DNA of 56,520 bases, taken from contig JAIEMN010000050.1 in NCBI GenBank assembly GCA_019752115.1, forward strand, positions 1 to 56,520. The letters run 5' to 3'. Shown piece after piece: positions 2,352 to 16,533 of the stretch; the first letter of the stretch is position 1; the number at the start of each line of letters is the position of its first letter. Position numbers and translations under genes: made by a program. The DNA is from Gemmatimonadaceae bacterium (GTDB lineage Bacteria > Gemmatimonadota > Gemmatimonadetes > Gemmatimonadales > Gemmatimonadaceae). Below the pieces are notes generated by a model, which saw only the letters and a list, made by a program, of their open reading frames with translations, did no database searches and had not been told where the DNA came from.

Positions 2352-4778
2352 TTGCGTTCTCTCGCTCCCACGGTGCCCTCGCACCCCGACCGCGAACTCG
2401 CGCTCCCGGGCTATCTCGCCGCGACCTATGCGCTCTTCACGCTGATTCAGGGCGTGTCGCTGGCCGTCACGGCGCAGATCGGGCAGCGCACGGGCCTCTC
2501 GCCGGCGGCGGCGGTGGGATTGGTCATGATTCTCGGCGCCCCCACCGGCGGCCGCTCGCTCGTGGCCATCACCACGTTGCTGGCAAATGCGACAGCCTAC
2601 TGGCTCGTCCCCGATGCCCAGGCCGCGCCGCCGCTCGTGGGGATGGGGGTGCGTCTCCTCGGTGATTGGGGAGGGGCGCTGCTCGTCCTCCGGGTCATTC
2701 GCGAACGCCCGTCGTTCGAACGCGCCTCGTGGCTGGTACGGTTTGGTGGGCTCATTGCACTGGTGATCACGCCAACGGTGTCGGTCGTGGCGGCGGTCCT
2801 GCTGCAGCTCAACCACGGCGGGAGTCTGTGGACGGAGTTCGTGCACTGGTACGTGCCCGAAGTGATCATGATTCTGACGGTCGGGCCAGCCATCTGGGTG
2901 CTGCGCGACGCCGTGATCCGCGCGCGGCGGACACCGGCCAGCGAAATCGCATACGGCGGGGCGGTATTGACGATCCTGATCGTGGCCGCCACGATCGCCG
3001 TGCAGCAACCGAATGTCGCCGGCATCACCCCGCCGATCAGTCTCGCCGTGGTCCCGCTCATGCTGTACATCGGCTATCGCTTCGGCGTGGGGACCACCGC
3101 GTGGGCGGGCGTCATCGTCATGGTGCTGCTGATCGGCTTCACCGCCGACGGCATCGGCCCCTTCGCCGCTACCCGAGCCGCGGGCATCCCACGCTTCGTG
3201 GCCGTCGAGCTGTATGTCGGCGCGCTCGCCATTCCACTGGTGGGCTTTGCCGCCGTGCTGCAGGAGCTCCGGGAGTCGTCGCAGCGCTTCCAATCGTTTC
3301 TCGACACCACGACCACCCCCGTCGTCGCCGTTGACCTCAGCCGTCGCGTCGTCGGGTTCAGCCCCAGCGCCGATCAGATGTTTCGCGCGTCCTCCGGCGT
3401 CGGTCTCCGCAGTGGCCTGGATCCCCTCGAGGCGGTACAGGAGTCGCCGGATGTCCTGGAGCGACGGACCCGCGGGTGGACGAACGCGTTGGCCGGTGAA
3501 GTGCACGTTGCTGTGCTCGAGCCCAACGCCGAGACGCGCGTGGAAATGCGCTATGAGCCGATGCGCAACAGCCAGGGCGACGTGGTGGGTGCCGTGGCGT
3601 CCGCCACCGACCTCATCCAACAGGAACGCGAGGCCGCCGAGCGCGAACGCGTGAGTCGACTCGAAACGATCGGTCGCGTCGCCGGCGGCATCGTGCATGA
3701 TGTGAACAACCTGATGACCGTGATTCTGGGCCAGGTGTTCGCGCTCCGGCGCCTCACGCGCGGCTCAGACGCGGCGCGCGGGGCCTTCGACGAGATCGAA
3801 CTGACCGTGGAGCGGACCAAACGCCTCTCCGCCCAGCTGCTGGCGTTCTCTCGTGCGCAGCCCATCGAGCCGATTGTCACCGAGCTGCAGAGCGAAGCGC
3901 GGCGCACGCTCGACATGCTGCGACGGGTGCTGCAGGAGGATGCAGTGCTCACGACCGACTTCGCCGACGGCGACTGGCGCATCGCCGTCGATCGCGGTCA
4001 GTTCGAACAGCTTCTGCTCAATCTCGTAACCAATGCGCGCGATGCCATGCCGAATGGCGGCACCGTGCGGCTCGCATCGTATCGGGAGACCTTCGCCGCC
4101 GCGGCGGGGGCGCGTCTGGGGATCCCGGCGGGCGATTATGTCCGGCTCGACATCAGCGACGAGGGCGCGGGGATCCCCGTCGAGGTCATCTCGAACATCT
4201 TCGACCCGTTCTACACCACGAAGGGCGCGCAAGGGAACGGCCTCGGTCTCGCCACGGTGAAGGCCATCATGCAGAAGGCTGGCGGCGCCGTCAGCGTCGC
4301 CAGCGCGCCCGGCTTGGGGACGACGTTCAGCATGTGGTTTCCCCGGACCACCTTGCCACTCACGGTGGCGGCAGCCGAAACGATCGCGAGCAGCTGGACA
4401 CCCGACGTGCCGTCTTCGCATGCGATCGTATGCGAAGACGAGCCGGCCATTCGTCGCGTGGTGGCGCGCACGCTGGGCAGCGCCGGGTGGCAGGTGACCG
4501 AGTGTGCGACGGCCGAAGACGCGCTGACCCAGCTCTCGCGCGCCGATGCGGCGTACTCGCTGCTGATCACCGATGTCGTCATGCCCGGCATGAGCGGCAT
4601 CGATCTGATGCGCGCCGCCCGTCAGCGGCAGCCGACCATCGCGATCATGCTGATGACCGGGTACTCGGAAGAGATCGTGCACTCGGTCGAGGTGAACGAC
4701 CGTCCGGACGTGGTCCTGGCCAAGCCGTTCCGGGGCGAGGATCTCATTCGCGAGGCGCAGCGGCTGCTCGCGTCGTGA
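2352..4778 (+). CDS. membrane hybrid histidine kinase (MASE1-like, PAS, HisKA, HATPase, REC)
   Basis: This is a sensor kinase carrying its own receiver. Residues 15-300 are an array of hydrophobic helices resembling MASE1-type integral membrane sensors. A PAS-like region follows (about 310-430). The dimerisation/phosphoacceptor helix has its histidine at H449 (GGIVHDVNNLMT). The ATPase domain shows an N box (NLVTNARDA), G1 (DEGAGIP), F box (FDPFYTTK) and G2 (GNGLGLA). A C-terminal receiver has phosphoacceptor D741 in LLITDVVMPG and lysine in LAKPF. The start is uncertain: TTG at 2352 or an in-frame GTG seven codons later, with no ATG near. No separate response regulator is adjacent, so phosphate probably passes on to an unlinked partner. 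It ends 4 bases from the convergent thioesterase gene. Confidence 0.88.
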   Translation: MRSLAPTVPSHPDRELALPGYLAATYALFTLIQGVSLAVTAQIGQRTGLSPAAAVGLVMILGAPTGGRSLVAITTLLANATAYWLVPDAQAAPPLVGMGVRLLGDWGGALLVLRVIRERPSFERASWLVRFGGLIALVITPTVSVVAAVLLQLNHGGSLWTEFVHWYVPEVIMILTVGPAIWVLRDAVIRARRTPASEIAYGGAVLTILIVAATIAVQQPNVAGITPPISLAVVPLMLYIGYRFGVGTTAWAGVIVMVLLIGFTADGIGPFAATRAAGIPRFVAVELYVGALAIPLVGFAAVLQELRESSQRFQSFLDTTTTPVVAVDLSRRVVGFSPSADQMFRASSGVGLRSGLDPLEAVQESPDVLERRTRGWTNALAGEVHVAVLEPNAETRVEMRYEPMRNSQGDVVGAVASATDLIQQEREAAERERVSRLETIGRVAGGIVHDVNNLMTVILGQVFALRRLTRGSDAARGAFDEIELTVERTKRLSAQLLAFSRAQPIEPIVTELQSEARRTLDMLRRVLQEDAVLTTDFADGDWRIAVDRGQFEQLLLNLVTNARDAMPNGGTVRLASYRETFAAAAGARLGIPAGDYVRLDISDEGAGIPVEVISNIFDPFYTTKGAQGNGLGLATVKAIMQKAGGAVSVASAPGLGTTFSMWFPRTTLPLTVAAAETIASSWTPDVPSSHAIVCEDEPAIRRVVARTLGSAGWQVTECATAEDALTQLSRADAAYSLLITDVVMPGMSGIDLMRAARQRQPTIAIMLMTGYSEEIVHSVEVNDRPDVVLAKPFRGEDLIREAQRLLAS

Positions 4779-4782
4779 GCCG

Positions 4783-5088
4783 CTACCCCCGCGGCCACAA
4801 AATCATCTGCGTACACCGATAGTACGCGATCACCTTCCCCGTGTCCGCGTGCGTCACGGTCGCATCCCACACCTGCGTGCTGCGACCGGCGTGCACCAGC
4901 GTAGCCACGCACTGCACCACGCCCTCGCGCGCCGTGCTCACATGGTTGGTCTTGAGCTCGATCGTCGTGAAGTTCTCGGCGCCTTCGGGGAGATGCGCGA
5001 TGCACCCGAAGCCGGCGGCGGTATCAGCGAGACTCACGATCGCGCCGGCGTGCAGATAGCTGTTCACCGCCGTGAGTTCGTGGCGCAC
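4783..5088 (-). CDS. hotdog-fold (PaaI-like) thioesterase, N-terminus uncertain
   Basis: The hotdog fold is recognisable from the helix SYLHAGAIVSLADTAAG, where the histidine/glycine and aspartate are typical of PaaI-type acyl-CoA thioesterases, and from the strand segments TTIELKTNH and TQVWDATV. The first standard start codon (GTG) gives only 101 residues. Family members run about 140. Reading upstream in the same frame gives about 38 further residues that look like a normal family N-terminus (RFTLEQL, then AEGELHAEF), back to a TAG stop at 5214-5212. The only plausible start there is ATT at 5202-5200. The gene therefore uses a rare ATT start, starts late, or has lost its start codon. It is convergent with the kinase gene. 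Confidence 0.75.
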   Translation of the reverse strand: MRHELTAVNSYLHAGAIVSLADTAAGFGCIAHLPEGAENFTTIELKTNHVSTAREGVVQCVATLVHAGRSTQVWDATVTHADTGKVIAYYRCTQMILWPRG

Positions 5089-5243
5089 CGTGAACTCGGC
5101 GTGCAGCTCGCCCTCGGCGATGTGCGTGATGCGAATGCCGAGGTAGGCGGGGAGGTGCGTGGAGGCGCGCTGCTGGAGCTGTTCGAGCGTGAAGCGTGGA
5201 ATGCGCCCAAACTAACGCGCCGCGCGCCCGCGCGATCAGGCGC

Positions 5244-5768
5244 CTACCACACCTCGCCCGGCCGCCAGTCGCAGGCCAGCGGGGCACTCACATTGAGTCC
5301 GGCCGGCGTCTTGGGTAACCGCAGGATCATCACCTCTTCATCGGGCGTCTCCACGACGCCGCCGGCGTCGCGTACCGAGAGCGGTCCGCGCCACATCTCC
5401 CAGCCGAGCCGGGCGTACCAGGCCTCGTCGCTCGGCGAGAGCGCGGCCAGATCAAACGCCTCCACCAGCGCCGGCACGGCACGCATCAGGCGCGTCGCGT
5501 AGCCCTTTCCCTGCTCCGCGGGCTGCGTGGCCACGGCTTCCACATAGGCCGTCTCCAACGGGCGGCCACCGTCGAGATAGAGCGTGCGCGGCACCCACAT
5601 CAGGTGCGACACCAGCTGGCCATCGACCGTCCCCAGGAGATGCACGCCAGGGCCGATGTCGGTGAGATAGGCCGCGAACGGTTCCTCATAGGCGGCCGTA
5701 CACAGTGCCACCACGGCGTCGCGCTGCGTGGCTGTGAGCGCGGCGGATGCGACGATATCGACCTGCAT
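5244..5768 (-). CDS. GNAT acetyltransferase resembling aminoglycoside 2'-N-acetyltransferase AAC(2')
   Basis: The GNAT acetyl-CoA binding motif is visible as Q/R-x-x-G-x-G/A in EQGKGYATRL, preceded by the strand AYVEAVATQP. The overall layout (174 residues, YARLGWE.W.GP.SV in the C-terminal half, ending CDWRPGEVW) closely matches mycobacterial AAC(2')-I proteins, which I recall ending CDWRAGDVW. Those enzymes acetylate the 2' amino group of aminoglycosides, and some may also act on cell-wall precursors. It lies among housekeeping-type genes with no mobile element beside it, so it looks chromosomal and intrinsic. Whether it confers resistance cannot be told from the sequence. Another GNAT substrate is possible. 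Confidence 0.75.
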   Translation of the reverse strand: MQVDIVASAALTATQRDAVVALCTAAYEEPFAAYLTDIGPGVHLLGTVDGQLVSHLMWVPRTLYLDGGRPLETAYVEAVATQPAEQGKGYATRLMRAVPALVEAFDLAALSPSDEAWYARLGWEMWRGPLSVRDAGGVVETPDEEVMILRLPKTPAGLNVSAPLACDWRPGEVW

Positions 5769-5801
5769 GTGATGCGATGACCCAATAAGGCGAAGGACGT
5801 G

Positions 5802-6188
5802 TTACGCCGTGTGCTGCACGCGCTTGCCCAGCGGCGCGAGACTCACGCTCGCCAGCCGGAAATGCGCGAGGCCGAACGGGATGCCGATGATGGTCAGGCA
5901 GCAGCCAATGCCGGCCACCACATGCGCGAGCCACAGCCACACGCCGGCAAAGAGCAGCCAGAGGACGTTCGCGATCCCCGTACCGGGAATGATCTGCTCG
6001 CCGACGCTCCGTGCATCCACCAGCGTCTTGCCGAACGGGAAGGCGGCGAAGCCGGCAATGCGGAACGCCGCGTATGCCCACGGCAGCCCGACGATCGTGA
6101 TCGCCAGAATGCCACCCGCGATCACCCAGCCGAGCCACGAGAAAAAGCCGCCGAGCACGAACCAGAGGATATTGCCGAGGAGGACCAT
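5802..6188 (-). CDS. YccF-domain inner membrane protein
   Basis: The 128-residue protein has the duplicated YccF pattern: LGNILWFVLGGF near the N-terminus, ITIVGLPWAYAAFRIA in the middle, ANVLWLLFAGVWLWL, then a second copy LTIIGIPFGLAHFRLA. About four membrane segments are predicted. The family is widespread and its biochemical role is unknown. It lies just upstream of the acetyltransferase gene on the same strand, 33 bases apart, so cotranscription is possible. Clear ATG start. Confidence 0.85.
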   Translation of the reverse strand: MVLLGNILWFVLGGFFSWLGWVIAGGILAITIVGLPWAYAAFRIAGFAAFPFGKTLVDARSVGEQIIPGTGIANVLWLLFAGVWLWLAHVVAGIGCCLTIIGIPFGLAHFRLASVSLAPLGKRVQHTA

Positions 6189-6241
6189 GGCGATATCTAC
6201 GGTTCGAACCCGGCGGCTGTTTCGACCGGGGCCCCCAGGCG

Positions 6242-9331
<3,090 letters not shown>

Positions 9332-12990: not shown

Positions 12991-13890
12991 TCAGGTCGTG
13001 ACCTCGGGCATCGGCGCGGTCACGGCCGCGACGGGGCGAACCGCGGCCCGCAGCATGGTGAGCGCCGCATACACCACCACCGCAATCACCAGCCAGCGGA
13101 GCAGCTCGATCGGGAGCGACGTCACCAGCAGCGCCGCAACCAACACACCGGGGATCCCGCCAATCGCGAGCCCCAACGCCGGCTGATCCACCTGATTGCG
13201 CCGCTTCACGAAGGCGAGACAGCCCAGCAATGCGGCAAAGGCACCACTGCCCATCATGATGGGAAAGGCCGCGCGCGGGTCCATGCCAAGCGCACTGAGC
13301 AACACGAACGTGGGGCCGTAGTTGCCGATGCCCAGCATGATCAGCGCACCGAGCACGAAGTTCACGCCGAGCGCGAGCCAGAGGGCCGAGCCACTCAGCG
13401 CGAGCGCCGTCCCTCCGACGGGCATCTTGTTGAGCTGCGCGATCGTCATGAAGAGCGCCGCCAGGAGCAACCCGACGCCCATGCCGAGCTGGATGGGGCG
13501 TCGCGGCAATCGCGAGACCACGCCGGCCCCCAACCAGCCCCCGGCGAGCGCCGTGGCGATCATCGACAGCAGCAGCGTGCTGTCGATCTGAATCTTCGAG
13601 ATGAAGATGACCGCCTGCGCGACCACGCCGAGGGTCAGCCCGACGATCATCGTGCCGGGCAGGCGCTCATCCGGCACCATGCGCAGCGCACGGAACGCCG
13701 TGGTGGTCGTGGCCAGTGACCCGATCCCCAGCGTGTCGAAGAAGCTGACCAGAAAGCCAATGGCCAGCTGTACCGGCGTCGGCCACCGAACGGGCGTCGC
13801 GGCCGCACGTATCGCCTGCCCCCAGCGCACCACAAAGAGCGTCGCGAGGACGAGGATCGCGGTGAGCAGGAGCGTGCGAATGTCGGGCAT
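12991..13890 (-). CDS. TauE/SafE-family membrane permease
   Basis: This is a 299-residue integral membrane protein with about eight hydrophobic segments and internal two-fold similarity. The motifs GFLVSFFDTLGIGSLATTTT and ALIMLGIGNYGPTFVLLSALGMDPRAAFP are characteristic of TauE/SafE anion exporters, though this subtype, with FFDTLGIGS rather than GFGGG, is the less studied branch. The transported solute is unknown; family members have been linked to sulfite or organosulfur export. It is the first gene of an operon with the TIGR03790 lipoprotein and starts with ATG. Confidence 0.82.
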   Translation of the reverse strand: MPDIRTLLLTAILVLATLFVVRWGQAIRAAATPVRWPTPVQLAIGFLVSFFDTLGIGSLATTTTAFRALRMVPDERLPGTMIVGLTLGVVAQAVIFISKIQIDSTLLLSMIATALAGGWLGAGVVSRLPRRPIQLGMGVGLLLAALFMTIAQLNKMPVGGTALALSGSALWLALGVNFVLGALIMLGIGNYGPTFVLLSALGMDPRAAFPIMMGSGAFAALLGCLAFVKRRNQVDQPALGLAIGGIPGVLVAALLVTSLPIELLRWLVIAVVVYAALTMLRAAVRPVAAVTAPMPEVTT

Positions 13891-13932: not shown

Positions 13933-15534
13933 CTAGGTCGACACCGTCAATGCCCGAGCGATCACGACGGCTAGCTCCTCGAACTGGAAGGGTTTCTGCA
14001 CAAACCCCAGGACACCCTTCCCCACCAGGCCGTCGAGCGCGGCGGCTTCCGAGTAGCCGCTCATCAGGATGATGCGGGCGTGCGGCCAGTCACGGTGCAA
14101 CTCTCGAACCGTGGCGCGACCGTCCAGGTGCGGCATCGTGAGATCCATCAGCACCAGGGGGTCCCGATCGTGGTACTCCTGGAACAGGGTGAGGGCCGCC
14201 CGTCCGTCAGGCGCCGAGCGGACCTCGAAGCCCATCTGGCGCAGCATGGCGCTGGCCACCGCGCGCACGCTCTCCTCGTCTTCGACGACCAGCGCCATGG
14301 CTCCCGGCCCCGGACGCGGCACAAACGCGGGCACATCGCGCACCGTCGTCGCCCGCTCAGCCGCGGGAAAGAGGAGCTTGAAGGTGGAGCCTCGACCGGC
14401 CTCGCTATAGACGCGAATGGCCCCGCCGTGACCACGGACGATGCCCAGGACGGCGGCCAGCCCGAGCCCGCGCCCCGTGAACTTGGTGGTGAAGAAGGGA
14501 TCGAAGATGCGGGCGCGCGTCTCGGGCGACATCCCCGCGCCCGTGTCCGACACCTCCAGCGTCACGTACAGCCCTTCCTGCAACCCCTCATCCACGAAGC
14601 TCTCGGCGAGATACTCGCGCTCACACCAGACCGCGCCGGTGGTCACCGAGATGATGCCGCTGCGATCGCCGATGGCTTCCGACGCGTTGATGATCAGGTT
14701 CATCACAACCTGACGGAGTTGCGAGCTGTCAGCGATACAGGCCGGCTGGTTCGGCATGAGATCCAACCGAAGCACGCACTTCTTGGAGATCGACACGTCG
14801 AGCAATCGGGCAATGCTCTCCACGAGTTCCGACAACACCACGGGCCCCGTCACGAACTGACCACGCCCCGAGTAGGCCAGCATCTGCCGCGTCAGTTCGG
14901 CGGCCTGCCGGGCACCATTGGCGGCCTCCCGGACCATGCGCGACGCTTCGGAATCGGACGCGCACTCCAGCAGGGCGAGGTCGCAGTAGCCCAGAATACT
15001 CGTCAGGATGTTGTTGAAGTCGTGCGCAATGCCGCCGGCGAGTACGCCGAGACTCTCCAGCTTTTGCGCCTGCATCAACTGCGACTCGAGTCGTTGCCGC
15101 TCGGCTTCCGCCTCACGCCGCCGGCGGATCTCCCGGTCCAGCTGCGCAATGCGCTGATTGAGCGCCGCATAGTGGACATCGGAGGTGCTCTTCGGGATCA
15201 GGCGCATCAGGAGCTTCGCCGACGACTCACCCTGACGTGGCGTCTGCACCCCGCAGTGCACCTGAAACGCCTCCACGCGCCCCGATGCCAGCCGAAATCG
15301 AAGTTGTCCGGGATGGGGCTCCCGGGACCCGGCACAGGCGTGCAAGTACCGACGCAGACGCTCGTGATCACCCTCGACCAGGTCCATCAGCGATTGGGCC
15401 GGCCTGGCCTGCATCCGCCACCCGAGGGCGCGGTACGCGGCGCGATTCGCGGCGAGGATCTCGCCATCCGGATGCACGAGCAACAGCTGATCCGGCAGCC
15501 AATCGGCTACGTCGTGAAAACGGCTGATCGGCAC
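13933..15534 (-). CDS. soluble hybrid histidine kinase (PAS, HisKA, HATPase, REC)
   Basis: The 533-residue protein has no membrane helix. Residues 5-110 form a PAS-like sensor (DQLLLVHPDGEILAANRAAYRALG). A coiled segment of charged helix (125-155) leads to the phosphoacceptor H171 (GGIAHDFNNILTS). The ATPase has N283 (NLIINASEA), G1 (DTGAGMS), F box (FDPFFTTKF) and G2 (GRGLGLA). The receiver has acidic DE at 419-420, D464 (VLMDLTMPHLDG) and a lysine in VQKPF. It starts at a GTG only 3 bases after the stop of the MetOD1-like gene, so the two are translated from one message, and the upstream protein is probably its sensory partner. Confidence 0.88.
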   Translation of the reverse strand: MPISRFHDVADWLPDQLLLVHPDGEILAANRAAYRALGWRMQARPAQSLMDLVEGDHERLRRYLHACAGSREPHPGQLRFRLASGRVEAFQVHCGVQTPRQGESSAKLLMRLIPKSTSDVHYAALNQRIAQLDREIRRRREAEAERQRLESQLMQAQKLESLGVLAGGIAHDFNNILTSILGYCDLALLECASDSEASRMVREAANGARQAAELTRQMLAYSGRGQFVTGPVVLSELVESIARLLDVSISKKCVLRLDLMPNQPACIADSSQLRQVVMNLIINASEAIGDRSGIISVTTGAVWCEREYLAESFVDEGLQEGLYVTLEVSDTGAGMSPETRARIFDPFFTTKFTGRGLGLAAVLGIVRGHGGAIRVYSEAGRGSTFKLLFPAAERATTVRDVPAFVPRPGPGAMALVVEDEESVRAVASAMLRQMGFEVRSAPDGRAALTLFQEYHDRDPLVLMDLTMPHLDGRATVRELHRDWPHARIILMSGYSEAAALDGLVGKGVLGFVQKPFQFEELAVVIARALTVST

Positions 15535-15537
15535 CGG

Positions 15538-16083
15538 TTAGCGGGCGAAGTATTCGCGGCCGGTGAGCGATCCCTCAGCGTCCGGCGGCTGGAGCTCCAC
15601 CACCACGTGGCAGCCCCCGTCACCATTCGCGATGGTGGACTCGAGCACGACGCGCGCATACCCGAGATTCTCGGCGACAATCCCGCCGAAGACGTTGGAG
15701 GTCATCATGCACAGGGCCGGCCGCCCGATGACCGCGGCGCCAAAGGGACACGCCGTATTGCGTAGCACGATACGACGGCTATCGCGTGCCTCGATACTGA
15801 ATCCGCCGCCAATGCGCCGTTTGAGATCGACGAGGACCTCCGCCACCTGCGCCTCGTCCAGTGTGGCGGTAGCGAGCCCGTCGCGGTACCCCGCATTGAT
15901 CTCATCGGCGAGACGCTGCCCCACGACGCTGACCAGACCTTCCGCCTGATCGAGACCGACGACTTCCTCGAGGACGCCCGCAAGTTCACGAAGCACGCTC
16001 CGAAAGAACCCATCCCGTTCGAGTGGATGAGCGAGCTGGGCAATCGGCAAGGCTGCGCTGGACACATGGACTCCCGGATGCAC
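15538..16083 (-). CDS. MetOD1-like cysteine-containing sensor protein
   Basis: The 181-residue protein has a helical N-terminal half (20-95) and a compact alpha/beta C-terminal half with NTACPFG, GRPALCMMTSNVFGGIVAENLGY and a third cysteine in GGCHVVVEL. C112, C125 and C158 are spaced as in the methanogen output domain 1 (MetOD1) family, related to V4R-type ligand sensors, where cysteines are suspected to hold a metal or Fe-S cluster. I recognise the family from its motifs only. The gene starts at GTG, with no in-frame ATG upstream or early in the gene. It is directly followed by a hybrid kinase, which suggests a redox, gas or metal input to that kinase. Confidence 0.7.
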   Translation of the reverse strand: MHPGVHVSSAALPIAQLAHPLERDGFFRSVLRELAGVLEEVVGLDQAEGLVSVVGQRLADEINAGYRDGLATATLDEAQVAEVLVDLKRRIGGGFSIEARDSRRIVLRNTACPFGAAVIGRPALCMMTSNVFGGIVAENLGYARVVLESTIANGDGGCHVVVELQPPDAEGSLTGREYFAR

Positions 16084-16194: not shown

Positions 16195-16533
16195 CTACGC
16201 CGTCTTGGGCACCCGCCAGTAGTACCACTCACGCTGCGGCGTCCACCCCTGTTGCGCGGCGAGCTCCGCCCCACGAATGCACGTCTCCACCGGAACGGTC
16301 GCGGCCCGATAGAGCGCATCAAGTTCGAGCAGCATCTCCCGCGTTTCCGTGGTCAGCGGGCGCACGCGGATGCGGGTGGCCAGTTCATGGCGCACATCGG
16401 CGTCAGCGAGCGGGTCGTGCTGCGGATCGTCGCGTCGCGCGCCGGCGGTGATGCCGGCGGTGCGTTCGACATCGTCCACGATACGCGCCCACTGCGCGAG
16501 GAGCGCGGGGATGGTGAGTTTGGTGAGGGTCAC
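16195..16533 (-). CDS. hypothetical protein, 112 aa
   Basis: I do not recognise this protein. It is short, soluble and mostly helical by composition. It has alternating Leu/Arg heptad-like stretches (LTIPALLAQWARIVDDVE, then LTTETREMLLELDALYRAA) and an aromatic C-terminal segment (REWYYWRVPKTA). It starts with GTG 25 bases after the stop of the UnbV lipoprotein gene on the same strand and may be the last gene of that transcript. Codon use with a G/C-rich third position fits a real gene. Confidence 0.6.
   Translation of the reverse strand: MTLTKLTIPALLAQWARIVDDVERTAGITAGARRDDPQHDPLADADVRHELATRIRVRPLTTETREMLLELDALYRAATVPVETCIRGAELAAQQGWTPQREWYYWRVPKTA

Follow-up and report, generated by a model that had tools for sequence, protein, structure and literature searches.

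The window, the whole stretch of DNA analysed here (56,520 nucleotides of contig JAIEMN010000050.1 from a Gemmatimonadaceae bacterium), carries on its minus strand two adjacent open reading frames (ORFs), and all features of the pair are given on that strand. The first ORF (15538..16083) has a GTG start and encodes a protein of 181 residues, a predicted sensor, which matches the Pfam family MetOD1 (PF18546) with 81.8 bits (E 6.7e-23, cut-off 23.8) and is the only MetOD1 copy in this genome. The second (13933..15534), also with a GTG start, encodes a hybrid histidine kinase of 533 residues, with Pfam matches in the order PAS, HisKA, HATPase_c and Response_reg. Its N-terminal PAS domain and the helical linker that follows (15097..15525, motif F..LN..I..L..E...R..AE) form a module that is common to MetOD1 partners, as judged by alignment and co-occurrence. 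In the HisKA domain (14869..15042), H171 lies in the phospho-acceptor motif HDFNN; HATPase_c (14359..14730) comes next, and then a receiver (REC) domain (13963..14292) with the aspartate D464. ORF and Pfam checks bear out the first-pass annotation, which had described a MetOD1 protein followed after three bases by a PAS-HisKA-REC kinase, presumed to be soluble.

The stop codon of MetOD1 (TAA, 15538-15540) and the kinase start at 15534 leave three bases between the two genes (stop and gap together, 15535..15540), and both ORFs are in the same frame. On reading the sequence we found no obvious ribosome-binding site for the kinase GTG, which fits coupling to MetOD1, and the arrangement makes translational coupling of the two genes likely. 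MetOD1 could also start at 16065 (residue 7), where a better ribosome-binding site, GGGAG, lies five bases upstream; the protein may then have 175 residues, with residue numbers shifted by 6. On the same strand, 42 bases past the kinase, lies a gene for a TauE/SafE family exporter (12991-13890, 63.7 bits), which may be part of the MetOD1-kinase transcript; its place beside MetOD1 is not conserved in a comparison of 80 neighbourhoods. The 112-residue ORF immediately upstream of MetOD1 (16195-16533, minus strand) has no Pfam match.

The window MetOD1 protein contains only three cysteines: C112 in a CPF motif (codon 15748..15750), C125 in a CMMTSNVFG motif (15709..15711) and C158 in a GC motif near the C terminus (15610..15612). 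From at least 354 related loci in one genome collection we took the best 80, which, together with the window protein and survey loci, form the MetOD1 alignment A1 (86 rows, 49-63% identical to the window protein; two rows are duplicates, L002 = L011 and L006 = L021). All three cysteines are invariant in these 86 rows from about 12 phyla, a count biased by the 80-locus set, because the peptide patterns used to find it include cysteine peptides. The CPF and CMMTSNVFG motifs and a C-terminal EY are also invariant in A1. Once the weak relative L007 (genome G375) is included, which falls under the Pfam cut-off and is without the third cysteine, C158 is found in 86 of 87 sequences. Surveys with the Pfam MetOD1 profile, which is independent of the cysteine peptides, placed MetOD1 above the cut-off in 8 genomes among 146 from Cyanobacteria and in 8 among 299 from Pseudomonadota, at 17 places in total. 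All three cysteines are present at each of the 17 places, at 16 of them in the exact pattern and in L140 with one extra residue. In the Gemmatimonadota, the phylum of the window, MetOD1 scores above the cut-off in 6 of 395 genomes, each time with the three cysteines. Two weak sub-cut-off matches (G375/L007 and G760/L147) do not enter the counts. The first-pass annotation had made its sensor proposal depend on the conservation of these residues, and the proposal survived in the alignment and in the surveys.

It had likewise made the proposal depend on linkage of the pair in other genomes, with a neighbourhood survey of MetOD1 proteins as the check. In that survey the ORF next to MetOD1 opens with one particular PAS-plus-helix module in 77 of the 80 loci, a count that is partly circular because the profile for this module (A3, 77 rows, omitting L022 and L067) was built from the same loci. 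Two of the exceptions are contigs that end 107 (L015) and 17 bases (L025) past MetOD1, and the third, L022, is a single ORF of 496 residues with MetOD1, HisKA and HATPase. In 65 of 76 loci the nearest possible partner start lies no more than 15 bases from the MetOD1 stop; a 4-base overlap is seen in 15 of 76. Five loci, L007, L015, L025, L056 and L071, are too short for the scan for partners. The alignment of the partner proteins (A2) omits L003, on the minus strand; its L022 row is the wrong ORF, with MetOD1 fused, and the start of its L067 row is wrong owing to Ns. A less circular test is given by the Pfam profile surveys, in which the PAS lies beside MetOD1 at 16 of 17 places, at least three of the survey genomes (G396, G397, G405) having also contributed rows to A3. 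Of 16 plasmid records with a MetOD1 match, six were examined, and five have the PAS partner; the sixth, from Priestia, does not. The MetOD1 of this Priestia plasmid (L185, 3965-4582) is divergent, keeps the three cysteines, has no annotated PAS neighbour and lies near sigma-factor and STAS genes.

Genome-wide profile searches, which score just the best first-look candidates of each genome, tie the two families together beyond these loci. The A3 profile gives 133-161 bits in 6 of 395 Gemmatimonadota genomes, exactly the MetOD1 carriers, and the next match has 49 bits; genome G244 reaches 138 bits though its own sequence is absent from the profile. At E <= 1e-14 the profile picks out 8 of the 146 cyanobacterial genomes, identical to the 8 MetOD1 carriers and including both copies of G430; in the Pseudomonadota it picks out 6 of the 299, each of them one of the 8 carriers. 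The remaining two Pseudomonadota carriers are G652, with a MetOD1-AAA+ fusion, and G797, with a PAS of just 40.8 bits. Over the 840 genomes of the three phyla, 20 have both MetOD1 and a strong PAS match, 2 have MetOD1 only, none has the PAS only and 818 have neither (Fisher p about 2e-38, for genomes that are not independent of each other); all 20 genomes with a strong match are thus among the 22 that carry MetOD1. Moreover, MetOD1 distances correlate with those of the PAS at r 0.75, compared to r 0.49 for the HATPase (54 pairs with a detectable HATPase). Given cysteines invariant in every aligned row and pairing at 77 of 80 loci, neither feature can be attributed to chance. The recurrent families are the partner cluster (69 loci) and MetOD1; every other family is confined to 6 or fewer of the 80 loci, and no neighbour gene that would name a signal recurs across the 80 neighbourhoods. 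The MetOD1 tree bears 12 phylum labels, with the Cyanobacteriota in one group and at least 14 changes for the Pseudomonadota on the best tree; this pattern fits transfer between lineages, short of proof.

The domains behind the PAS vary. Among 79 partner proteins, Pfam finds HisKA in 69, HATPase_c in 69 and Response_reg in 40, and more rarely GGDEF (4), EAL (4), HisKA_2 (2), HWE_HK (2) and SpoIIE (1). The PAS is followed by GGDEF-EAL in L018, L037, L045 and L079, by HisKA_2 in L039 and L070, and by SpoIIE in L055 (MetOD1 and partner at 5549-7417). The MetOD1 gene of a Streptomyces plasmid (L184, pair at 3992-6099, near anti-sigma/STAS genes) overlaps by 4 bases the gene of a PAS-SpoIIE phosphatase, whose PAS scores 100 bits. 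In Cereibacter sphaeroides 2.4.1, a model strain of the laboratory, the gene order on pDE is MetOD1, HisKA_2 kinase and response regulator (L183, 1891-8005); heme oxygenase and EAL genes lie immediately upstream of this operon. Because the outputs behind the PAS vary, what is conserved as a unit is the pair of MetOD1 and PAS, rather than MetOD1 with a kinase. Two natural fusions were found: in L022 MetOD1 stands ahead of HisKA-HATPase, and in L146 (1450-3012) ahead of a sigma54 AAA+ domain followed by HTH_8, a Fis-type HTH. The idea of the first-pass annotation that a sensor feeds the kinase as a separate chain is supported by the pairing and by both fusions; it needs amending in that the partner is the PAS module, whose outputs include GGDEF-EAL and SpoIIE. 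We conclude that MetOD1 is very probably an input subunit that acts in trans on this PAS.

The structure model of MetOD1 has a pLDDT of 88.7 and a pTM of 0.80. Its best structure matches are TRAPPC3/Bet3 chains (Z up to 15.0; archaeal TRAPPC3, 7yh3, Z 12.8). The sensor domains of DmpR, PoxR and MopR match at Z about 14.5 (for 6iy8_C and the PoxR chains, 146-149 residues superpose with rmsd 3.0-3.3 and Z 14.4-14.6), and H-NOX is a distant match at Z 8.7-9.2. The model thus predicts for MetOD1 the fold of TRAPPC3 and V4R proteins, and perhaps that of H-NOX. A search of PDB sequences with the single MetOD1 protein returned no credible match, and a search with a MetOD1 profile yielded nothing better than weak hits on ribosomal L12, at E-values of 0.06 and above. 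The label “V4R-like”, given in the first-pass annotation, is apt for the fold, as found by structure matching, but not at the level of the V4R Pfam profile, for which the window protein shows no match at E <= 1. MetOD1 and the PAS were also modelled as one read-through chain, from an alignment (A4) that covers 18 of the 20 in-frame loci and just a part of the remaining rows. This model has a pLDDT of 88.0 and a pTM of 0.64; both domains are well formed and their mutual arrangement is not fixed. Compared to the pTM of MetOD1 alone, this value gives no confident docking on the PAS. An Fe-S cluster shared by the two proteins was considered and rejected as unlikely, since neither cysteine of the PAS is conserved: the C67 column holds C in 55 of 81 rows and W in 12, and C94 falls in a column with G in 70 of 81.

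Two Fe-S regulators offer a comparison for the cysteines. According to the accessible text of PMC12343034, Cys179/193/223 of ArnR hold a [4Fe-4S] cluster and the ArnR sensor domain has been modelled on TRAPPC3 entries including 7yh3; in the SufR protein Rv1460, the accessible text of PMC6034842 reports that C203, C216 and C244 are required for function. The cysteine spacing is X13/X29 in ArnR, X12/X27 in SufR and X12/X32 in MetOD1. Using hhalign, residues 19-168 of MetOD1 align with the SufR sensor domain at E 0.0096 with the three cysteines in register, C112 opposite the first ligand cysteine of SufR, C125 opposite the second and C158 opposite the last. One of 200 shuffles reaches the real score of this alignment. 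With a broad SufR set the E-value is 0.017 and 2 of 150 shuffles are as good, and with a trimmed cyanobacterial set 12 of 150 are as good; the sequence similarity between MetOD1 and SufR is weak and only suggestive. The three-cysteine motif occurs in 44 of 45 SufR-like proteins, and the MetOD1 alignment has no evident fourth cluster ligand. The genome of the window also carries a SufR-like gene (G000:C22:98984-99613), which at 87 bits lies under the SufR cut-off. In our judgement MetOD1 is likely to hold a metal centre on its cysteines, and the chances that this centre is of the Fe-S kind are about even.

The same data bear on a V4R-like small-molecule sensor, in which the cysteines would bind zinc in a structural role. 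A ligand in the pocket, aromatic or otherwise hydrophobic, would then switch the partner with the PAS, just as DmpR, PoxR and MopR are switched by phenol. The fold matches these sensor domains at Z about 14.5, the hhalign comparison of V4R with MetOD1 (E 0.0095) has a score equal to that of SufR, with C125 on the first and C158 on another of the three V4R cysteines, and in L146 MetOD1 takes the place of V4R before the sigma54 AAA+ domain. However, the V4R cysteines follow the pattern C-X25-C-X7-C (L178, L179, L182), compared to C-X12-C-X32-C in MetOD1; C112 has no V4R counterpart, and the position of the middle V4R cysteine is I151 in MetOD1 (I in 83 of 86 rows). At position 148, which would correspond to the V4R glutamate, E178 of MopR, just 44 of 86 rows have E. 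Since all three cysteines register with SufR and just two with V4R, Fe-S is tentatively favoured over zinc, and we regard the small-molecule sensor as unlikely, though more probable than the other alternatives.

That MetOD1 is not a sensor at all, and is instead an output domain or an ATC-hydrolase-like enzyme on which the partner acts, seems improbable. Archaeal MetOD1 domains are found behind REC domains, and Galperin et al. suggested an enzymatic, hydrolase-like role (accessible text of PMC5847659); the Priestia member gives a weak ATC_hydrolase match (E 0.0029, under the cut-off), and PF14196 (ATC hydrolase) gives none on the window protein at E <= 1. Against this reading, the fusions in L022 and L146 put MetOD1 at the input position, and the one partner to which it is tied is a PAS at the N terminus. 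A heme sensor, either H-NOX-like or with C112-P113 as a heme regulatory motif, is a shade less probable again: H-NOX domains resemble MetOD1 distantly in fold (Z about 9), C112-P113 is invariant in A1, and H-NOX and NosP are likewise encoded beside kinases or cyclases (accessible text of PMC11237717), but MetOD1 has no conserved histidine (the sole column with more than 20 has 27 of 86), which disfavours heme, and a heme motif leaves the three invariant cysteines unexplained.

On balance we favour the reading that MetOD1 is a probable Fe-S sensor of redox state, NO or O2 that acts in trans on a dedicated PAS. Metal, redox or gas sensing, as in the first-pass annotation, is what we infer from the cysteine register and the fold, and we infer likewise the cofactor, the signal, the physical docking and the sign of regulation. 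The three invariant cysteines would bind a metal centre that reacts to redox state, O2 or NO; its most probable form is a [4Fe-4S](Cys)3 cluster of the kind found in ArnR and SufR. MetOD1 would be made together with its partner through translational coupling and would act on the dedicated PAS at the N terminus of that partner, and the long helix after the PAS would pass the signal to the output. In the window this output would be the hybrid histidine kinase, with phosphotransfer from H171 to D464 and then presumably to an Hpt protein or response regulator encoded elsewhere; in other genomes the same MetOD1 and PAS input stands ahead of HisKA_2/HWE kinases, GGDEF-EAL enzymes or SpoIIE phosphatases.

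Relatives of MetOD1 are widespread, with at least 354 stretches in the one genome collection, and annotated plasmids call them merely “methanogen output domain 1-containing protein”. The pairing with the PAS predicts a role for these relatives, pinpoints the partner domain and offers tractable cases, such as the pDE operon of C. sphaeroides 2.4.1 and the MetOD1-phosphatase pair of Streptomyces. Should the cofactor prove to be Fe-S, two-component and c-di-GMP signalling would have a redox/NO/O2 input that is broadly distributed and has so far been overlooked.

The MetOD1 domain and its cysteines are already in print. Galperin et al. named it as an archaeal output domain, with the warning that such domains could be input domains, and noted its three conserved cysteines and its similarity to HNOB, V4R and ATC hydrolase; in the accessible text it is listed for methanogens, in or behind archaeal response regulators, with stand-alone archaeal members also listed (PMC5847659). 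PF18546 is also listed, in the accessible text of PMC9879509, for a repeat-bearing protein family of Borg elements, which places MetOD1 on archaeal extrachromosomal elements as well. The methanogen domains share the Pfam family and the three cysteines with the window protein, whereas the latter and its bacterial relatives in about 12 phyla are stand-alone, paired with a PAS and very probably act as input; unlike several archaeal members, the window MetOD1 is not attached to a REC domain, a difference that does not speak against its membership of the family, since stand-alone members are known from archaea too. In the accessible text of the open-access literature searched we found no description of the bacterial MetOD1-PAS pair; judged by that literature, a bacterial input cassette of two genes, with one exclusive PAS partner and outputs of several kinds, appears to be new.

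Among the regulators compared, ArnR and SufR have their sensor domain fused to a DNA-binding wHTH, whereas MetOD1 is a free chain paired with a PAS. The V4R sensors of DmpR, PoxR and MopR have the fold in common with MetOD1 (Z 14-15) and the same place that MetOD1 holds in L146, but differ in cysteine spacing and in their Pfam profile. H-NOX and NosP are heme sensors, whereas MetOD1 has cysteines and no conserved histidine, is a distant match to H-NOX and does not belong to those families. Like MetOD1, however, they are small separate proteins encoded beside a partner enzyme, the histidine kinase or diguanylate cyclase that they regulate (accessible text of PMC11237717), and H-NOX may share the fold. 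We put forward, tentatively and at slightly less than even likelihood, that MetOD1 and its PAS form an output-independent input cassette, with a cysteine-bound Fe-S sensor of TRAPPC3/V4R fold as a separate chain. Exchange of the part behind the PAS would have joined this cassette, in at least 12 bacterial phyla, to histidine kinases, sigma-factor phosphatases and c-di-GMP enzymes. On this view the archaeal “output” domain would be a sensor, and the cassette a cysteine/Fe-S counterpart of H-NOX and NosP.
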